Assembly: GCA_023525915.1 (NCBI GenBank)
Contig: CP026657.1
Coordinates: forward strand, 4,054,001 to 4,118,000
DNA length: 64,000 nt
Direction: 5' to 3'
Origin: Acetispira formosa (nom. nud.)
GTDB taxonomy: Bacteria > Desulfobacterota > Desulfarculia > Adiutricales > Adiutricaceae
Below, one piece after another: positions 8,457 to 51,429 of this stretch. The notes below the pieces were generated by a model. It saw only the letters and a program-made list of their open reading frames with translations, was not told the origin of the DNA and searched no databases. How positions within the stretch are numbered: the stretch's first letter is position 1; each line of letters opens with the position of its first letter. Made by a program: the position numbers and the translations under genes.

Positions 8457-8856
8457 ATTGGTGTTGCCCTCTGGCGTTGTTGCTCACGTTTTTTAATGCT
8501 CGAACACGTCTCGTAGGTAGTCAAGGTTGAATTTTCTTTTCGGAAAGCGAGTGACCGCTGCCGGGAGAAATGTTTTTGCCCGGCTCCGGTTCCGGGGGTC
8601 TTTAGTCACCGGAGCCGGGCAAAAACATTTCTCCCGGCAGCTACATGGTCGGCTTCCCCCGGCCTGGAAAGTATGCATAGCTGAAGCAGGAGCCGGAAAC
8701 GGGGGATTGTTTTTGTCCCGGCTCCGGGACTAAAGACTTCCGGAGCGGAGCCGGGACAAAAACAATCCCCCGTTTCAGGCGGGTCTATGCTGTTCCGAAA
8801 TTACAACCTTGACGATGTAAGCCAGAGAACAAAATCCCTTATTTACGACAAATTCT
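8457..8856. repeat. Repeat C, copy 1, interrupted by a palindromic composite
   Basis: The left part (8457-8502, with CTCTGGCGTTGTTGCT and TTTTTTAATGCTCGAA) and the right part (8821-8856, GCCAGAGAACAAAATCCC then TTATTTACGA) match the two halves of the intact 143 bp element at 49032-49174. Between them lies a block of about 294 bases holding palindromes A1 and B1. This looks like one repeat inserted in another. Confidence 0.6.
8520..8813. repeat. Composite palindromic element A1+B1
   Basis: The block is bounded by a 10 bp inverted repeat (GTCAAGGTTG, 8520-8529, and CAACCTTGAC, 8804-8813). Inside are two separate long palindromes. A1 has a perfect 34 bp stem (8557-8590 with 8608-8641) and B1 a perfect 31 bp stem (8696-8726 with 8746-8776). 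The A1 loop contains TCTTTAGTC and the B1 loop its near complement GACTAAAGAC. No coding capacity is evident. It lies between two convergent genes, so it may act as a transcription barrier or RNA stabiliser. Confidence 0.75.
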
Positions 8857-15445: not shown

Positions 15446-15535
15446 GCCGGAAGCGGAGGATTGTTTTTATCCCGCCTCCGGTTCCGGAAGTCTTGGTCAC
15501 CGGAGGCGGGATAAAAACAATCCTCCGCTTCCGGC
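15446..15535. repeat. Palindrome B2 (37 bp perfect stem)
   Basis: 15446-15482 pairs perfectly with 15499-15535 around a 16-base loop containing TCTTGGTC. The arm carries GGAGGATTGTTTTTATCCCG, related to B1 (GGGGATTGTTTTTGTCCCGG), but several bases differ on both arms together so that pairing is kept. Confidence 0.75.
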
Positions 15536-15572
15536 TCCCACTCGGCCAGGCAGGCTTTCCAGCCTTTATGAA

Positions 15573-15645
15573 AGCCGACCAGAGAGCCGCCGGGCAAAAA
15601 CATTTCTCCCGGCGGCGCTCAACCGCTTTTTCCGAAAATTCAACC
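15573..15645 (-). repeat. Palindrome A2, internally deleted copy
   Basis: On the minus strand this reads GGTTGAATTTTCGG..GCGGTTG, then the A-type arm GGGAGAAATGTTTTTGCCCG, then directly the outer flank CTGGTCGGCT. The central part of the palindrome present in A1, A3 and A4 is missing, leaving only a 9 bp stem. Confidence 0.6.
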
Positions 15646-18498: not shown

Positions 18499-18656
18499 GT
18501 AATTACGGTGGCCGTCATCGTATTAAGAGTGCTGCCCCCTTGGACGGTGTTGCATTTATAGCCGAGGGGGCACCGATCTTAATACGATGACGGCCTCCGA
18601 AGTTACCGGATACGGGAAACCGCCACCTAGACATAGCCCCGTGCGGGCCACGCACA
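18499..18656. repeat. Repeat E, copy 1, with an inverted partial copy
   Basis: 18561-18656 (+) aligns with 23884-23979: GCC.AGGGGGC, CTTAATACGATGA, TACGGGAAA, ACCTAGACATAG and a GTGCG..CGCAC hairpin. An inverted partial copy occupies 18499-18545, so the locus folds into an imperfect stem of about 40 bp. It fills the gap between the prepilin peptidase start and the cheY stop codon. Confidence 0.6.
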
Positions 18657-19037
18657 TTAAGGGAACATTTTTTCCAGTTTTTCCTGGAGTGTGTCGGCTG
18701 TGAAGGGTTTGACCACATAGTTGGAGACTTTGGCCTTGACCGCTTCGATGATGTTTTCCTGCTGCGCTTCAGCCGTGACCATCAGGAAGGGAATGTCCTT
18801 GAGATGTTCGGATGAACGCACGTGGCGAAGCAGTTCAATGCCGGTCATATTGGGCATGTTCCAGTCGCTGATTATGATATCGAATTTTTCGATTTCCAGG
18901 AGCGCCGCCGCCTTTTCGCCGTCTTCAGCTTCGGAGATATTGCTGAAACCCAACTGACGAAGGATATTTTTGACAATGCGGCGCATGGTTGAAAAATCGT
19001 CAACCACCAGAACTTTCATGTTTTTGTCGTAACCCAT
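18657..19037 (-). CDS. cheY: CheY-type response regulator
   Basis: A 126-residue single receiver domain. It shows VLVVDDFSTMRRIV (acidic pair), the phospho-acceptor Asp in IISDWNMPNMTG, the conserved Thr in FLMVTAEAQ and the Lys in NYVVKPF, the full set needed for phosphorylation-driven signalling. The opening segment matches flagellar CheY proteins, which bind the FliM switch. The start at 19037 (MGYDKNMKV) is preferred over an extension to 19055; an internal ATG (MKVLVVDD) is also possible. No chemotaxis neighbours are present. Confidence 0.85.
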   Translation of the reverse strand: MGYDKNMKVLVVDDFSTMRRIVKNILRQLGFSNISEAEDGEKAAALLEIEKFDIIISDWNMPNMTGIELLRHVRSSEHLKDIPFLMVTAEAQQENIIEAVKAKVSNYVVKPFTADTLQEKLEKMFP

Positions 19038-20557: not shown

Positions 20558-21017
20558 TGTTCAAAAGCCTCCTGGTTAATCCGGTGCCCCCCTGGAGCTC
20601 CGGCACTGTTTTGGAACGATTCACCACTGTGAATCCATGCTATTTTTATGCCACCTTTAGCGGGTAAACGCGGCTATATTTTCCGGATTGCGCCTGTCCC
20701 CGGCTGACATTTGGGGGATCAATAGTATTGGTGAAAAAAACGATAAAAAATTACATCCAGCCCCGCCATATTGTGGTCTGTATAGTAAAGCGTCCATATA
20801 TTGGCTAAATAACCCGACTGTGCATCAATAATTGGACGTCAATAGTCCTTCACTTAAATAAAAAAGGATGATAGTCGTTTTACAATAAGAGTTACCTGTC
20901 GATTAGTTATAGTAAATTATATGATAATTTGCAATACATATTTCAATTTTATTTAACAAATTTTGAAAAACGCATGTAATTTAGCACCTTTTCAGCCAGT
21001 GTTGAATGTGGTGTATG
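20558..21017. other. AT-rich intergenic stretch
   Basis: About 460 bases with no gene. Bases 20860-20980 are strongly AT-rich (for example TAGTAAATTATATGATAATT), unlike the rest of the window, and run up to the left end of foldback element F1. It may contain the nrdR promoter at its left side. Confidence 0.4.
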
Positions 21018-21849
21018 GAGTGCGGCCCGGAGGGCCGCGTGATTAAAGGACTTGGCCCGAAGGGCCAACCAAAGGGTTCCACCCTCTGGACTCCGGCTGG
21101 GGGAGGGCCCACGCGGGCCCTACCCCAGACCCCACCCGCGCCAGGGGGGCGGAGCCCCCTGGACCCCCAAGAGGTCTGGGTCGGCTTCAACTTACTTTTT
21201 CCAGCATCGCCGCAACTCGCTTCGAGTACGAAGCTCAGACAAGCGGCGACGCTTCATACCGCTTCCGCTTTAACCGCTGTCGGTCGCTTCACATTGGGTT
21301 GTTACATTTTGCTATAGGCAGCTTCATTGAATGATTGCTGCTTCACGTATGTTCGGCTGGTTAATTTTTCCCCTCCAATAGTTTTTCCAGCGCTGTGACG
21401 GTGAGACTTGGCCGTCTTTTTTTTAATGAGCAACTCATTGAAAAGCGATAGGTGGCGGAGAAACGGACTAACAGCACTGGAAAGGGCCTTTAAGGGTAAG
21501 CTGATTTAAGCCGAACATACGTGAACTACCACTCAGCCGATGAAGCTGCCTATCGCGGAATGTTACAGCACAACGTAAAACTGCCTATAGCACCAGAAGC
21601 TGACACAGTAAGAAGCGTCGCCGCTTGTCTGAGCTGAGCTTGCGAAGCGAGTTGCGGCGATGCGGGAAGAAGAAAGTTAAAACTGACCCTGACCTCTTGG
21701 GGGTCCAGGGGGCTCCGCCCCCCTGGCGCGGGTGGGGTCTGGGGTAGGGCCCGCGTGGGCCCTCCCCCAGCCGGAGTCCAGAGGGTGGAACCCTTTGGTT
21801 GGCCATCAGGCCAAGTCCTTTAAATCGCGCGGCCAAAGGCCGCATTCAT
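21018..21849. repeat. Foldback element F, copy 1 (about 830 bp)
   Basis: A non-coding element with two long inverted arms. The left arm (21018 to about 21358) and right arm (about 21510-21849) share GTGCGGCC..GGCCGC, ATTAAAGGACTTGGCC, TGGACTCCGGCTGGGGGAGG, GGGGCGGAGCCCCC, GCATCGCCGCAACTCGCTTC and ACAAGCGGCGACGCTTC. An inner inverted repeat GTATGTTCGGCT (about 21348-21359 with 21510-21521) brackets a core of about 150 bases with a central AATGAG-CAA-CTCATT hairpin near 21425-21439. A second copy, reverse complemented, lies at 35278-36106. No open frame above about 100 codons is convincing. Confidence 0.85.
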
Positions 21850-23832: not shown

Positions 23833-23883
23833 AGCCCTGCCGCAATTTGATAATCGGCTGGCGCGAACCATACGCAGACCATA

Positions 23884-23979
23884 GCCAAGGGGGCCACACT
23901 CTTAATACGATGATGGCTGCCGTAACCAACTATTACGGGAAAGGGCTACCTAGACATAGTCCAGTGCGGACCACGCACA
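23884..23979 (+). repeat. Repeat E, copy 2 (upstream of fabZ)
   Basis: A 96-base element matching 18561-18656. It contains CTTAATACGATGA, TACGGGAAA, ACCTAGACATAG and a terminal hairpin GTGCG-GACCA-CGCAC (23964-23978). The hairpin ends 14 bases before the fabZ ATG, next to its AGGGA ribosome binding site, so it could influence fabZ translation. Confidence 0.65.
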
Positions 23980-23992
23980 TATAGGGAATTTT

Positions 23993-30090: not shown

Positions 30091-30103
30091 CGCATATCAA
30101 GAT

Positions 30104-30232
30104 TGAGTTTTCGGAAAAGCGGTTGGCCGCCGCCGGGAGAAATGTTTTTGCCCGGTGAGGTTCCGGGGGTCTTTAGTCACCTCACCGGGCAAAAACATTT
30201 CTCCCGGCGGCTCCCTGGTCGGCTTTCTTAAG
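30104..30232. repeat. Palindrome A3 (32 bp perfect stem)
   Basis: The core 30129-30160 pairs perfectly with 30180-30211 around a 19-base loop with GGGGTCTTTAGTCA. The flanks GATTGAGTTTTCGGAAAAGCG and CTGGTCGGCTTTCTTAAGG match A1 and A4. The inner arm is GGTGAGG where A1 has GGCTCCGGT; the opposite arm changes with it. It begins 14 bases after the DUF4416 stop. Confidence 0.75.
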
Positions 30233-30261
30233 GCTGTGTGCCTGGCCAAGAGGGCGCAGGG

Positions 30262-30497: not shown

Positions 30498-30499
30498 GG

Positions 30500-30600
30500 T
30501 CGAGTCTTCGAGACGGAGCGCCAGCGACTGGTATTGAAGCCGAAGAAGCAACACGCGAAGCAAAAACCACGTTTTTTGCGTAGCACCGAGACGCATGTTA
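30500..30600 (+). repeat. Repeat D upstream of yicC
   Basis: It contains GTCGAGTCTTCGAGACGGAG, GCCAGCGACTGGTATTG and the inverted pair GCGAAGCAAAAACCACG / TTTTTTGCGTAGC that defines the D core. It ends 19 bases before the yicC ATG and so would form part of its leader. Confidence 0.65.
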
Positions 30601-30618
30601 AAGGGAGAACATTTTAAT

Positions 30619-35277: not shown

Positions 35278-36106
35278 GGAGTGCGGCCTTTGGCCGCGCG
35301 ATTTAAAGGACTTGGCCTGATGGCCAACCAGAGGGTTCCACCCTCTGGACTCCGGCTGGGGGAGGGCCCACGCGGGCCCTACCCCAGACCCCACCCGCGC
35401 CAAGGGGCAAGCCCCTTGGAACCCCAAGAGGTCAGGGTCAGATTCAACTTTCTTCTTCCCGCATCGCCGCAACTCGCTTCGGGTACGAAGCTCAGACAAG
35501 CGGCGACGCTTCATACAGCTTCCGCTTTAGGTGCTTTTAGGTTGCTTCACGTCGAGCTGCTACAGCTTTCTATAGGCGGCCTCATCGGCCGAGTGATAGT
35601 TCACGTATGTTCGGCTTAAATCAGCCACCCCTTAAAGGCCCTTTCCAGTGCTGTTAGTCCGTCTCTCCTCCACCTATCGCTTTTCAATGAGTTGCTCATT
35701 AAAAAAAGACGGCCAAGTCTCACCGTTACAGCACTGGAAAAACTATTGGAAGGGAAGAAGTAATCAGCCGAACATACGTGAAACAACAATCATTCAATGA
35801 AGCTGCCTATTACAAAATGTAACAGCCCAATGTGAAGCGGCCGACAGCGGTTAGAGAGAAAGCGGTAAGAAGCGTCGCCGCTTGTCTGAGCTTCGTACTC
35901 GAAGCGAGTTGCGGCGATGCGGGAAGAAGAAAGTTGAATCTGACCCTGACCTCTTGGGGGGGTCCAGGGGGCTCCGCCCCCCTGGCGCGGGTGGGGTCTG
36001 GGGTAGGGCCCGCGTGGGCCCTCCCCCAGCCGGAGTCCAGAGGGTGGAACCCTCTGGTTGGCCTTTCAGGCCAAGTCCTTTAATTGCGCGGCCGTAGGCC
36101 GCATTC
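35278..36106. repeat. Foldback element F, copy 2 (about 830 bp)
   Basis: Reverse-complement copy of 21018-21849. The left end is GGAGTGCGGCCTTTGGCCGC and the right end GGCCGTAGGCCGCATTC. The inner repeats GTATGTTCGGCT (near 35605) and AGCCGAACATAC (near 35765) and the central AATGAGTTGCTCATT hairpin (about 35686-35700) are kept. It ends 8 bases before the tkt stop codon. It contains no convincing gene; short frames inside it reflect the repeated arms. Confidence 0.85.
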
Positions 36107-36114
36107 CCTTTTTC

Positions 36115-38118
36115 CTACAAGCTTTCAACCAGGGCGGCTACATTTTCCGCCGTAAATCCCATCTCCTTAAACACGCGTTCAGCCGGAGCGGACGCGCCAA
36201 AGCTTTCAATGGAAAGACATTTGCCGTCATTACCGGTATAACGCTCCCAGCCCATTGAAATGCCGGCCTCCACAGATAAACGCTTCTTCACCTCTCGCGG
36301 AAGCACCTCATCACGATAGGCGGCAGACTGTTCATTAAACAGCTCCCAGGAGGGCATGGATACAACCCGCACCTTACGCCCCTTTTGGGTCAGGAGCTTC
36401 TGGGCTTCCAGGGCCAACGACACCTCAGAACCACTGGCCATGATGAGCGCCTCCGGCGCTCCGCCCTCAGCTTCGGACAGAATGTAGCCACCCTTCTCCG
36501 GGCCGCCGATCACCGAAGGAAAATCATCAGGATGGAGAGTCGGCAGATTCTGACGCGAAAGGGCCAGGGCCGTGGGGCCTTTGCGCTTGACGGCCACACG
36601 CCAGGCGGCAACCGTTTCATAGCCGTCCGCCGGGCGAATCATCGCCAGGCCGGGAATGGCCCGCAAAGCGGCCAAATGCTCTATCGGCTGATGCGTCGGC
36701 CCATCCTCACCCACACCGATGCTGTCATGGGTGAAAATGAAAGTGGCGGGCAACTTCATCAGCGAGGCCAGCCTCAAAGCCGGACGCACGAAATCCGAAA
36801 ATACCATAAAGGTTGCGCCATAGGGCCGTATGCCGCCATAAAGGGCCATGCCGTTGACCGCCGCCCCCATAGCTTCCTCACGCACCCCAAAATGAATATT
36901 GCGGCCGGAAGGCGTGTGCGCACTGAAAGAGCCGCCATCATCTATCGATGACTTGTTGGAGGGGGAGAGATCCGCACTGCCGCCAATGAGTTCCGGTATT
37001 TGCGCGGCCAGAGCATTCAAGGCCTGCCCGGAAGCGATACGGGTAGCCATGGCCTTGCCCTTTTCAAAGGACGGCAGTCCGTCAGCCCACCCTTCAGGCA
37101 GTTCACCCGCCAGACGGCGCTTCAGTTCAGCCGCCTCAACTGGATAAGCCTTCTCATAGGCCGCTAGTTTTTCGCCCCAGCTATTATAGGCCTCCAAATG
37201 GGGCTGGCTCAGGGTTTTGAAATTTTCATAAACCCGCTCATCTACCGTAAACTCTTGATCTTCAGGATAACCGTAAAAAGCCCGGGTGGCCTTGATGGCC
37301 TCTGACCCCAGCGGTTCACCGTGGGCTTTGGGCGAATCTGCTTTTGGGCTGCCCGCGCCGATCTTGGTCTTCACCATGATAAGGCTTGGGTGCTCCTTGT
37401 CGGCGACGGCATTTTCAATAGCCATATAAATGGAACCTAAATCTTCACCCTCGGTCACCACGATAACCTGCCAGCCGTAGGCCAGGAAACGGCCGCGCAC
37501 ATCTTCTGTAAAGGCCAGGCCGGTGCGCCCTTCAATGGTGATGCTGTTGTCGTCATAGAGATAGATGAGGTTGCCCAGTGACAAAGTCCCGGCCAGAGAG
37601 GCCGCCTCGGACGACACACCCTCCATCAGGTCGCCATCGGAAACAATGGCGTAGACCTTGTGATCGAAAAGGTTGAATTCAGGGCGGTTGAAGCGGTCGG
37701 CCATCATTTTTTCAGCCATGGCCATGCCCACGCCCATGGCAAAACCATGCCCCAGGGGGCCGGTGGTGGCGTCAACACCGGGCGTGTGCCCATGCTCAGG
37801 GTGGCCGGGAGTCAGGCTGCCCCACTGACGGAAATCCTTCAATTCATCCAGACTCAGACCGTAACCGGCCAGGTGCAGCCAGGCGTAAAGTAAAGCCGAA
37901 CCATGCCCGGCCGAAAGAATGAAGCGGTCGCGGTCAGGCCAGGCCGGATCGGCCGGATTGTGCTTCAGGAAACGGCTCAAAAGGACATAGGCCATTGGCG
38001 CAGCGCCCAGAGGAAGGCCCGGGTGCCCGCTTTTGGCCTTTTCCACCATGTCCGCGGCCAGTAGACGCATGGTGTTGACGGAAGCCTGATCTTTACGGTT
38101 GAATGATGGGACTGCCAT
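36115..38118 (-). CDS. tkt: Transketolase
   Basis: A 667-residue thiamine-diphosphate enzyme of the non-oxidative pentose phosphate pathway. Motifs include the N-terminal [21 protein letters not shown], the ThDP/Mg segment [18 protein letters not shown]-like (VSDGDLMEG...NNS equivalent DDNSITIEG), and the pyrimidine domain [19 protein letters not shown] with the catalytic Glu. The C-terminal domain holds [13 protein letters not shown]. The start at 38118 follows AAGGGG; an upstream frame start at 38154 is less likely. It is monocistronic, with foldback element F2 directly downstream. Confidence 0.95.
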
Positions 38119-38283
38119 GATATAACCCCTTGTTTTTATTATCCCGCCGCGCAATCGCCAGAACTGGCGGGGGCTGCGGCCGTTGGTTGTGGGAAACGGA
38201 CTTCATAATATCACACCGGCCGTTTGAAAGACAACTTTAGATACTCAGGCTCAACAGTATTTTGTGATGAGGCCGCCATCAGC

Positions 38284-44965: not shown

Positions 44966-45014
44966 TTTTGGTCTTGAGCGGTTTTAATTACAAAATTTGT
45001 CGCCTGCCGCCAAA

Positions 45015-45260
45015 GTCGAGTCTTCGAGACGGAGCGCCAGTGACTGGTATTGGCGGCAACAAGGCAACGAGCGAAGCAAAAATCACATTTTTTGCGTAGC
45101 GCCGGGCTGTAAGTTTGGAAATGCAAAGTAATGAACAGTCGAGTCTTCGAGACGGAGCGCCAGCGACTGGTGTTGACAGCAACAAGGCAACGAGCGAAGC
45201 AAAAATCACATTTTTTGCGTAGCGCCGGGCTGTAAGTTTGGGGATAAATGCAAAGTAATC
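45015..45260 (+). repeat. Two tandem D repeats upstream of the corrinoid gene
   Basis: Units starting at 45015 and 45138 (period 123 bases) each read GTCGAGTCTTCGAGACGGAG, GCCAG.GACTGG and GCGAAGCAAAAATCACA / TTTTTTGCGTAGC, then GCCGGGCTGTAAGTTTGG and ATGCAAAGTAAT. The second copy runs into the start codon region, so the first codons of the corrinoid gene (MQSNQTQSNQ) are made from the repeat tail. Confidence 0.75.
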
Positions 45261-45989: not shown

Positions 45990-47351
45990 GTGGCCGCTGT
46001 GAAGGAATCCGTGGCCTGCCCGGCTTGCGGAAGACCCCACCGTCTGACCCGGCGAAGCCTTGGCCGCAGCATCACCTGCCGCCAATGCGGCGCTCCCTTC
46101 CATCTCCTGCCCAAATCCGGGGAAGCCCCCACCTTTATTTCCGGGCCGGGAGGTGACGACGATCTGCGCAACCAGGTGGGCCGCCAGTGGCTGGATCTGC
46201 GCCCAGGTCAGATTGTGGCTGGCGGCTGTGAGGTCATCAGCCTTCTCGGCCGGGGCGGCCTCAGCAGTGTCTATCATGTGCGCCGCCACGATTGGGAGCT
46301 GGATATGGCCCTGAAACTGCCCCAGGCCGCCACCCTTGATCGTCTGACGGCCGAAGCGTTTATCCGGGAAGCTTCCGCCTGGCTGGTCCCTGCCCCGCAT
46401 CCCCATGTAGTGGCCTGCCACTATGTGATTAACCTCATGGGGCGGCCGGCCATTTTTATGGAGTATGTAAAGGGCCGCAACCTGTCCGTGCTGATGGATG
46501 AGGGGCTGGGCCCTCTCTATGACGGCCAGGCGGATGAACTGGCCCTGAAATTGGTGGACCTGATGATTCAGGCCGCCCGGGGGTTGGCCTATGTTCATAG
46601 TTTGGGGCTTCGCAATCTGGATGTAAAACCGGCCAATCTTATGCTGGAAGAAAGCGGCCGGCTTCTGATAGCTGATTTCGCTCCCTTGAATAAGGATGAG
46701 GCTGTGGAAGCGCCGGACAACTCGCGCGACTTTGACAATGACGCGATGACGGAAGTTTCTCCCGCCCGTCTGATGGGCACCCATCAGTATTTTTCCCCAG
46801 AGGCGGCCGGGTCAAAGCAGACCGGCGACACCCACCCGGACCTGTGGGCCTTGGCCTTGAGCGGCTTGGAGTGTTTTTTGGGGCGGCGGCCCTGGGAGGC
46901 CGGTTCCATGGTGGGGGACGCGCTGGAGTCTTATCTATCCGGCCCCTGCGCCGTGCCGGTTCCGCTTTCGCTGGCGGCTTTTTTCCATAAAGCCCTGTCT
47001 TCCCATCCGGTTAGGCGCTATCAGAGCGCGGCTGAGATGGAAATGGCCCTGACGGACATTTACGCCCGCCTGAGTTTCGGCCCTTATCCGCGACGCCCTG
47101 TCGGGCCGTTGCCGGAGACGGCCGATCGCCTCAACAATAAAGCCGTATCTTTCATGGAACTGGGCCAGCCGGCCGAGGCCCGGCGACTGTGGGCCGAGGC
47201 CCTGGAGCTTGCGCCCGGCCACCGCGTCAGTGCCTTTAATCGCCTCATCAACCGTTTCGGCCCGGACCTGGCCTCTCTCCCGGAGGCCGCGCCAGGCACC
47301 GACACCGCCCTCAAGCTGGCCAGAGTTGCGCCGGGCGAATGGGATTTTTAA
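45990..47351 (+). CDS. Atypical Ser/Thr protein kinase with zinc ribbon
   Basis: A 453-residue protein. Residues 9-42 form a zinc ribbon (CPACG ... CRQCG). The kinase domain (about 75-360) has the glycine loop LLGRGGLSSVYHV, the ATP-binding Lys in ALKLP and the catalytic loop as RNLDVKPANLML, where the usual HRD is replaced but Asp, Lys and Asn are kept. DFG is DFA, and the activation segment ends YFSPEAAG. A C-terminal helical segment (RLNNKAVSFMELGQPAEARRL) resembles a TPR. The GTG start is 8 bases after the corrinoid stop, so the two are probably coupled. Activity may be reduced or specialised; its link to corrinoid metabolism is unexplained. Confidence 0.82.
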   Translation: MAAVKESVACPACGRPHRLTRRSLGRSITCRQCGAPFHLLPKSGEAPTFISGPGGDDDLRNQVGRQWLDLRPGQIVAGGCEVISLLGRGGLSSVYHVRRHDWELDMALKLPQAATLDRLTAEAFIREASAWLVPAPHPHVVACHYVINLMGRPAIFMEYVKGRNLSVLMDEGLGPLYDGQADELALKLVDLMIQAARGLAYVHSLGLRNLDVKPANLMLEESGRLLIADFAPLNKDEAVEAPDNSRDFDNDAMTEVSPARLMGTHQYFSPEAAGSKQTGDTHPDLWALALSGLECFLGRRPWEAGSMVGDALESYLSGPCAVPVPLSLAAFFHKALSSHPVRRYQSAAEMEMALTDIYARLSFGPYPRRPVGPLPETADRLNNKAVSFMELGQPAEARRLWAEALELAPGHRVSAFNRLINRFGPDLASLPEAAPGTDTALKLARVAPGEWDF

Positions 47352-47352
47352 A

Positions 47353-47490
47353 GGTTGAGTTTTCGGAAAAGCGGTTGACCGCCGCCGGGAGAAATGTTTT
47401 TGCCCGGTGAGGTTCCGGGGGTCTTTAGTCACCTCACCGGGCAAAAACATTTCTCCCGGCGGCTGCCTGGTCGGCGTTCTGAAAGGTTTG
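47353..47490. repeat. Palindrome A4 (32 bp perfect stem)
   Basis: The core 47381-47412 pairs perfectly with 47432-47463 around a 19-base loop. It is almost identical to A3, including the flanks GGTTGAGTTTTCGGAAAAGC and CTGGTCGGC. It starts immediately after the kinase stop codon. Confidence 0.75.
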
Positions 47491-47540
47491 ACAACGGACA
47501 ATTCTAATTATGTCCAACTCTGCCGCATATAAATGGGTCG

Positions 47541-48035
47541 AGCCATGGATGGCGAGACGGAGCGCCAGCGACTGGGTTTGACGGCCAAACAGCTTCGTGC
47601 GAAGCAAAAACCACGCTTTTTGCGTAGCTACAAGCCGCAAGTTCAAGGGAAAAAGCCATATTTAAAGCCAAGCCATGGATGGCGAGACGGAGGGCCAGCG
47701 ACTGGTTTTGACGGCCAAACAGCTTCGCGCGAAGCAAAAACCACGCTTTTTGCGTAGCTACAAGCCGCAAGTTCAAGGGAAAAAGCCATATTTAAAGCCG
47801 AGCCATGGATGGCGAGACGGAGGGCCAGCGACTGGTTTTGACGGCCAAACAGCTTCGCGCGAAGCAAAAACCACGCTTTTTGCGTAGCTACAAGCCGCAA
47901 GTTCAAGGGAAAAAGCCATATTTAAAGCCGAGCCATGGATGGCGAGACGGAGCGCCAGCGACTGGGTTTGACGGCCAAACAGCTTCGCGCGAAGCAAAAA
48001 CCACGCTTTTTGCGTAGCGGAGAGGCCGCAGGTTC
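47541..48035 (+). repeat. Tandem array of four D repeats, 130 bp period
   Basis: Units start at 47541, 47671, 47801 and 47931, exactly 130 bases apart. Each holds AGCCATGGATGGCGAGACGG, CCAGCGACTGG, GACGGCCAAACAGCTTCG and the hairpin GCGAAGCAAAAACCACG / CTTTTTGCGTAGC, then CAAGCCGCAAGTTCAAGGGA. Units 2 and 3 are nearly identical, pointing to recent duplication. The last unit degenerates after 48017. The frames that cross it are artefacts of the repeat. Confidence 0.88.
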
Positions 48036-48152
48036 AGGGAAAGCAGCCGTATTGCAATCGCTACCGCCGCACAATGTGCTTGACATTAATGAGGCGTTGG
48101 AGTATAACGCTCCAAGGTGGTCGATGTACCACCTAGAAGCGTTTGGATTCGA

Positions 48153-51029: not shown

Positions 51030-51142
51030 GGGTCGAACGCAGTGAGACGGAGCGGCAGCGACTGGTATTGAAGCCGAACAGGTCGCCCGCCAAGCAAAAA
51101 TCACTCTTTTTGCTTGGCAACGGGCCGCCGGTTCAAGGGAAA
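51030..51142 (+). repeat. Repeat D with a perfect internal hairpin
   Basis: It contains GGTCGAACGCAGTGAGACGG, GCGACTGGTATTGAAGCCG and the inverted pair GCCAAGCAAAAA / TTTTTGCTTGGC, a perfect 12 bp stem with loop TCACTC, then GCCGCCGGTTCAAGGGAA. Other copies have GCGAAGC/GCGTAGC in the stem. It lies between ylxR and infB. Confidence 0.7.
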
Positions 51143-51307
51143 TTTGATTTTTATAATAGTAGCCGGGTCGGGTTCAGTTTAAAAGCGCGTCTGAACCACG
51201 AACCTCTGAAAAAAAAACACCAAACCGGGATTTCAGGAAACATGGCCGCTGGAGCGGGCGGTCTGAATTGTCTATAAAAATATGGCAACCCTGCCGCATA
51301 TGGCCGG

Positions 51308-51429
51308 GGTCGAGCGGGAGCGAGACGGAGCGTCAGCGACTGGTTTTGACGGAAAAACAGTTGCCCGCGAAGCAAATACCACTTTTTTGCTTAGCTGCAA
51401 ACCGCCGGTTCAAGGAAAAAACGCCATAT
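51308..51429 (+). repeat. Repeat D upstream of infB
   Basis: It reads GGTCGAGCGGGAGCGAGACG, GTCAGCGACTGGTTTTGACG, GCGAAGCAAATACCAC / TTTTTTGCTTAGC and CCGCCGGTTCAAGGAAAA. It is the second D copy in this 535-base gap and ends about 75 bases before the infB start. Confidence 0.7.

Follow-up and report, generated by a model that had tools for sequence, protein, structure and literature searches.

A non-coding element of 830 bp that occurs twice in the window (the whole stretch of 64,000 nucleotides analyzed here) is a dispersed palindromic repeat of the host genome. Most of its copies lie just behind stop codons, and the small hairpins that make up its arms are maintained. On balance, we find it somewhat probable that the element is a REP/BIME-like palindromic repeat of giant size, in which a hairpin array specific to the genus forms an inverted dimer, and that it has spread as a non-autonomous DNA element and is tolerated, or used, as a bidirectional 3′-end structure. 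The likeness concerns how the element works; identity as a REP/BIME is not claimed.

The limits of the element were set by comparing copies, and its parts are listed in Table 1. A hairpin series, H1 to H6, is present twice in inverted orientation, on either side of a variable core of 350 bp; after H6, each arm continues with an inner arm, a 15-bp box and a dyad. A repeat search of the window placed the arms of copy 1 at 21033-21358 and 21509-21834 (326 nt, 83% complementary). The left end begins with GGAGTGCGGCC (end consensus, RRRWAAGGARTGCGGCC), and the right end is its imperfect mirror: GGCCGCATTCA in copy 1, and ..ATTCC in most copies. An earlier note made from the sequence alone had described inverted arms, an inner inverted repeat, a central palindrome and a full second copy, all of which were found. 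Its contrast between GC-rich arms and an AT-rich core also holds, the arms themselves being strings of six small palindromes.

Table 1. Parts of the element in copy 1, with the location of copy 2 (window positions).
Feature	Position	Strand	Evidence or remark
Whole element, copy 1	21017..21848	+	Copy alignment, end consensus RRRWAAGGARTGCGGCC; at another copy, comparison with a paralogous locus fixes a terminus of this type
Whole element, copy 2	35278..36107	.	Stop codon of the transketolase gene (36115-38154, minus strand) is 7 nt from its right end
H1 terminal hairpin, GCGGCC-CGGAG-GGCCGC, GGAG before it	21022..21038	+	Loop variants, end consensus; local covariation z 4.4
H2 hairpin, TTGGCC-CGAAG-GGCCAA	21052..21068	+	Compensatory loop-closing pair T-A/C-G, z 9.7
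H3 hairpin, CCAAAGGG-TTCCA-CCCTCTGG	21069..21089	+	z 11.5; IS110 insertion site in two other copies
H4 hairpin, CTGGGGGAGGGCCC..GGGCCCTACCCCAG	21097..21128	+	Few singletons (0.08-0.14 per site); position conserved in three congeners
H5 hairpin, CCAGGGGGGCGGAGCCCCCTGG	21141..21162	+	960/960 Watson-Crick cells, G-C 65 / A-T 55 exchange, z 11.9
H6 hairpin, invariant internal loop ACTCG..CTCAGACA	21204..21252	+	Covariance model; prophage-remnant insertion site in other copies
Inner box, left, CACGTATGTTCGGCT	21344..21358	+	Genome-wide box search
Dyad centre (central palindrome), AATGAGCAACTCATT	21425..21439	.	Sequence; three half-copies end nearby
Inner box, right (inverted CACGTATGTTCGGCT)	21509..21523	-	Genome-wide box search
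H6', mirror of H6	21615..21663	-	H6 covariance model
H5'	21705..21726	-	Sequence, covariation
H4'	21739..21770	-	Sequence, covariation
H3'	21778..21798	-	Sequence, covariation
H2'	21799..21814	-	Sequence, covariation
H1' terminal hairpin, then outward T-rich, G-poor tract	21829..21843	-	Exit-tract analysis

The earlier note gave two copies, and the true copy number had gone unnoticed. The inner box has 82 forward and 78 reverse matches genome-wide (one each for a reversed control), so that the genome (4.68 Mb, three contigs) contains about 80 copies. Nearly full-length copies number at least 40, at 88-96% identity, and 2.79 Mb of the main contig, C1, contain about 50 full-length copies plus truncated ones. 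Statistics on genomic context refer to this portion (C1:1-2.79 Mb, 62% of the main contig), and sequence from the window and from other loci served for alignments only. Divergence among 60 aligned copies averages 12% (minimum 4%, maximum 21%), and there is no sign of recent movement because near-identical copies are absent. Since the 300-bp flanks of the copies do not match one another, the element is a dispersed repeat. Confinement to two places by segmental duplication, an outcome contemplated in the earlier note, is contradicted by the copy number, by the unrelated flanks and by the empty orthologous sites described below. Three half-copies elsewhere stop near the dyad centre, as would be expected if the hairpin centre were cut, for example by SbcCD. 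An internal-deletion derivative of about 150 bp, made of H1-H2-H3-H2'-H1' only, is found at C1:1692188-1692350 and probably arose by slippage between H3 hairpins.

With 61-65% identity in LpxB, the host is related to Candidatus Adiutrix, which belongs to Desulfobacterota and lives in termite guts. The gene order nrdR-ompH-lpxD-fabZ-lpxA is the same in L178 and L179, two genomes of Ca. Adiutrix, and their nrdR-ompH gaps are too short for the element. Hairpin arrays of congeners, in turn, sit at gene ends whose orthologues in the host genome have none. Within the host, a 3.26-kb duplication (98.8%) is also informative: at 541354 the element directly follows an intact terminator, while in the other copy (around 15410) a different palindromic family begins at the same point. 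Empty orthologous sites and differing duplicate loci thus indicate that copies were gained in a lineage-specific manner.

When genes were called with an approximate hexamer-based caller made for this analysis, 23 of 50 full copies were found in convergent gaps, 24 in tandem gaps and 3 in divergent gaps. The corresponding figures for all intergenic gaps longer than 60 bp are 198, 872 and 227. The element is therefore enriched in convergent gaps (23/50 vs 198/1297, Fisher p = 5e-7) and depleted in divergent ones (p = 0.03). Copy 1, located between the divergent nrdR and ompH-like genes, is an exception. In 61 cases the 3′ end of a gene faces an end of the element; 43 of these lie no more than 30 bp away (median 13), and several are at distance 0, with the stop codon directly against GGA. 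In convergent gaps, the spacing beyond the element has a median of about 55 bp, compared with 190 bp in gaps without it (p = 0.002). The 10-nt tract outside both ends is T-rich, and G makes up 1-7% of the outgoing strand vs around 21% at control gene ends; five or more Ts in 10 nt are found at 44% of element exits and at 17% of control gene ends, the T-tract being impure. A GC hairpin between purine-rich and T-rich tracts, behind converging genes, is also the arrangement of bidirectional intrinsic terminators. The element differs from them, however, in that it is mobile, very long and followed by an impure T-tract.

The absence of a convincing gene, as stated in the earlier note, was confirmed. 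A gene reading was discarded because H5 has two common forms, with a 2-nt difference in length that shifts every frame; no open reading frame is conserved, and a conserved protein encoded in the core can be set aside. The suggestion of a structured RNA locus did not prosper either. No Rfam family matches the element at E values up to 1, its orientation is random relative to the transcription of flanking genes, and G-T mismatches between arms are about as frequent as A-C when pairs are taken from a neutral alignment. Random orientation and equal mismatch frequencies mean that nothing points to one RNA strand. An excess of G-U in the core vanished with pairs from the neutral alignment, and was an artefact of using an RNA fold. 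A many-copy gene for a large structured non-coding RNA would fit the conserved structure and a terminator-like site within the core. However, copy 1 has no promoter-like site inside, a G-U excess is absent on both strands and arm-arm co-variation is absent, all of which, together with the random orientation and the lack of an Rfam match, make this the least probable reading considered here. Two further candidates were rejected: a group II intron of the kind that inserts at 3′ ends (a GTGCG-like start is present in fewer than half of the copies, and there is no Rfam domain match) and a K-turn in the H6 loop, where the flanking pairs, judged by eye, are unsuitable.

The consensus of 60 copies has a folding energy of -710 kcal/mol. 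The giant hairpin, anticipated in the earlier note, is not the unit that is maintained. In every segment, the left arm pairs with its own right arm no better than with that of another copy, and variants of H5 or H2 often differ between the left and the right arm within one copy. Each of the six small hairpins, in contrast, shows better internal pairing than permuted pairs do (z 4 to 12). All 960 cells of H5 are Watson-Crick, despite one pair that alternates between G-C (65 arms) and A-T (55 arms). Because the small stems co-vary and the long arms do not, the giant hairpin is a by-product of the arrangement, and the small hairpins are the persisting units.

Maintenance of the stems admits more than one explanation. 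Template switching in replication is reported to create and maintain hairpins (PMC8794818). Because it can keep stems palindromic, stems alone are no proof of selection, and the compensatory changes in the small stems could come from template switching rather than selection. The near-invariant internal loop of H6 is harder to explain in this manner than the stems. Singletons are also unevenly distributed: 0.08-0.18 per site in H4 and H6 vs about 0.5 in the core and H3, a 4- to 7-fold deficit in H4/H6 relative to the core. The singleton substitution spectrum across the element alignment is nearly flat, with 110 transitions and 186 transversions. One may thus conceive a passenger repeat with no 3′-end role, inserted at random, surviving only behind genes and with its stems kept by replication template switching. 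This explanation, which we consider possible though unlikely, would accommodate the flat spectrum, the variation of stems by Watson-Crick exchange with G-T pairs almost absent, and the reported capacity of template switching to make and maintain hairpins. It does not predict that copies lie nearer stop codons than convergent gap lengths would give, nor that singletons are scarce in H4/H6, and pairing-based correction cannot maintain a loop that is near-invariant in four species.

The four species are the host and three congeners. A DNA search of 98 relatives yielded short arm matches in two congeners only. These two and a third (together G002, G004 and G006; loci L031-L036 and L258-L268) have the order H3-H4-H5-H6 with different stem sequences, and a linker, ACCCGCGCC, joins H4 to H5 in G002 and G004. 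In the congeners, the arrays consist of one arm or of units repeated directly at a spacing of about 93 nt, at non-orthologous sites of fragmented drafts in which inverted dimers may be hidden. A covariance model of H6 has at least 150 matches in the host, 37 in G006, 16 in G004, 5 in G002 and none in 33 other genomes of the family. Compensatory changes rebuild the H6 stem: in an alignment fitted to the structure, its paired cells amount to 96% vs 80% in shuffled controls, with 49 vs 16 double changes. The internal loop, ACTCG/CTCAGACA, hardly varies; this loop and the hairpin order are what the element has in common with the congener arrays. The same loop motif is found as the tip of a different stem in a second foldback family of about 210 bp (C1:373675, 645682, 928620, 1030925, 1541147 and 2713099, among others). 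A tentative proposal, which we rate as unlikely, is that these repeats form a genus-specific class of mobile hairpin arrays. The H6-type hairpin with its invariant loop (ACTCG..CTCAGACA) would be the recognized unit, and an enzyme acting on single strands would move monomers and inverted dimers to positions just behind stop codons; from one species to another the stems would be replaced, with order and loop retained.

The non-autonomous transposon proposed in the earlier note stands in part. About 80 copies, unrelated flanks and empty sites support a dispersed non-autonomous repeat; the classical MITE or foldback type is not supported. No consistent target-site duplication was detected in 53 copies (lengths 2-9, offsets 0-11, compared with permuted pairs), and no autonomous, gene-carrying element with the same ends was found in C1:1-2,790,000 (62% of the main contig). 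Arms split by genes in this region are nested insertions. Versions of 7 kb and 4.5 kb were discarded as autonomous elements, because prophage inserted in one arm (D12 methyltransferase, tail fibre, CI-type repressor) makes up the additional DNA. An inverted repeat reaching into the flanks, striking in single copies such as that at 1099449, does not exceed permuted pairs. The exact pattern ACGTATGTTCGGC-N130-160-GCCGAACATACGT has no match in genomic or viral contig collections, and blastn of the element against plasmids and phages returned nothing. A classical derivative of a DDE transposon, with terminal inverted repeats read by a transposase encoded elsewhere, would explain inverted ends, lack of coding capacity, dispersal and lineage specificity. 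We deem it improbable, however, in view of the absence of target duplication at every offset tested and of a same-ended, gene-bearing element in 62% of the main contig, of ends that are themselves hairpins with variable loops, and of the strong post-stop placement.

Nested insertions occur at fixed points of the element. Identical IS110-family elements of 1296 bp (PF01548, PF02371) are found at C1:93256-94551 and C1:1831695-1832990, at the same point of H3 (CCCTCT^..GCTGG). All six IS110 copies found have the target CCCTCY^GCT, and the other four lie in another repeat family; such insertions look like the repeat-targeted, bridge-RNA type. Prophage remnants (D12 DNA methyltransferase, tail-collar fibre, CI-type repressor) at C1:256895-263349 and C1:1166451-1170091 interrupt two copies at the same point of H6, and a third remnant (C1:488082-488712) adjoins a truncated arm. 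Hence, the recombination substrate envisaged in the earlier note is upheld only in the sense of an insertion target for prophage remnants and the IS110 element. In other bacteria, REPs are bound by gyrase and further proteins, and one might view the element as a landing pad, that is, a genomic site for an integrase or a chromosome-organizing protein. The recurrent insertion points in H6 and H3 agree with this view. However, IS110 uses this short target motif in a different repeat family as well; with 4 of about 80 copies affected, the insertions look incidental, and they leave 3′ placement unexplained, so that we regard the landing pad as very unlikely.

MITEs and long bacterial palindromic repeats (ERIC, Correia/NEMIS, YPAL) are non-coding, dispersed and hairpin-forming, with inverted ends, and the element resembles them in all these traits. 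It is however longer, lacks target duplication, is composed of small palindromes, and no related insertion sequence was found. With REP/BIME the element has in common many intergenic copies in convergent or tandem gaps, within about 20 bp of stop codons (PMC3733652), palindromes in inverted pairs, and a hairpin with a conserved non-paired motif (PMC8266576). GTAG and CGTC REPs follow convergent genes at less than 20 bp from the 3′ end and also lie a short way behind tandem genes (PMC3733652); for E. coli TnpA_REP, the tetranucleotide is needed as well as a bulge conserved in the REP stem (PMC8266576). Differences are also evident. The element, at about 830 bp and with a structured interior, is around 20 times as long as a REP (20-50 bp, with dimer spacers of 20-100 bp), and each arm carries six different hairpins. 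Its ends are mostly GGAR instead of the GTAG/CGTC tags of REPs: in 89 main-type ends we counted 27 GGAA, 23 GGAG and 1 GTAG, and GTAG-like tags are present in only some of the 12 minor-type ends. A RAYT gene flanked by the same repeat would be a further mark of a REP/BIME. Nine Y1 transposase genes were found in the genome, which correspond to two IS200 sets plus two RAYT-like genes (222 aa, at C1:1606499 and 3755153), and no cognate RAYT was recognized. Flanks were read at C1:1606499, where a link with the element was rejected, as this gene is bordered by GGGGACAGTATACT ends with inverted repeats GGGGACAGTATACTTAT, unrelated to the element. By the tests run, the element is neither a GTAG-REP nor a classical MITE.

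If the giant REP/BIME-like reading is correct, the element would be spread in trans, through a single-strand mechanism, by an enzyme that recognizes one or more small hairpins, as TnpA_REP reads REPs. Candidates for recognition are H6, with its invariant internal loop, and the terminal H1 with GGAR. Copies would persist almost only behind genes, where promoters stay uncut, and might there act, or at least be tolerated, as bidirectional 3′-end structures of genes whose transcription enters them.

Other repeat families are also present in the window. A foldback family with centre GGTTCCGGGGGTCTTTAGTCAC and arms TTTTTGCCCGG (30099-30238, 47351-47490, 8537-8655, 15466-15637) has 107 near-full copies in 2.79 Mb and a weaker 3′ bias. 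The family GAGACGGAGCGCCAGCGACTGG..GCAAAAACCACGCTTTT (47539-48042, 45014-45241, 30498-30602, 51032-51388), with about 205 near-full copies in 2.79 Mb, lacks 3′ preference; three to four of its 130-bp units are in tandem at 47539, and related sequence is present in congener G004 (L035). A third family, ..GTGCGGACCACGCACA (18499-18665, 23881-23988), also lies behind genes and forms 108 match clusters, 20 of them near-full.

The usual view of REP-type repeats is that they measure some tens of bases and that RAYT enzymes mobilize them. An element of 830 bp at about 80 gene ends, whose hairpin order and loop outlast its sequence, would extend the REP class in size. The series formed by the single arm, the direct array and the inverted dimer is natural material on the growth and spread of palindromic repeats, and the approximately 80 sites offer a place to ask whether such elements end transcription. 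Long palindromes of this kind may also help to account for the poor short-read assembly of genomes in the genus.
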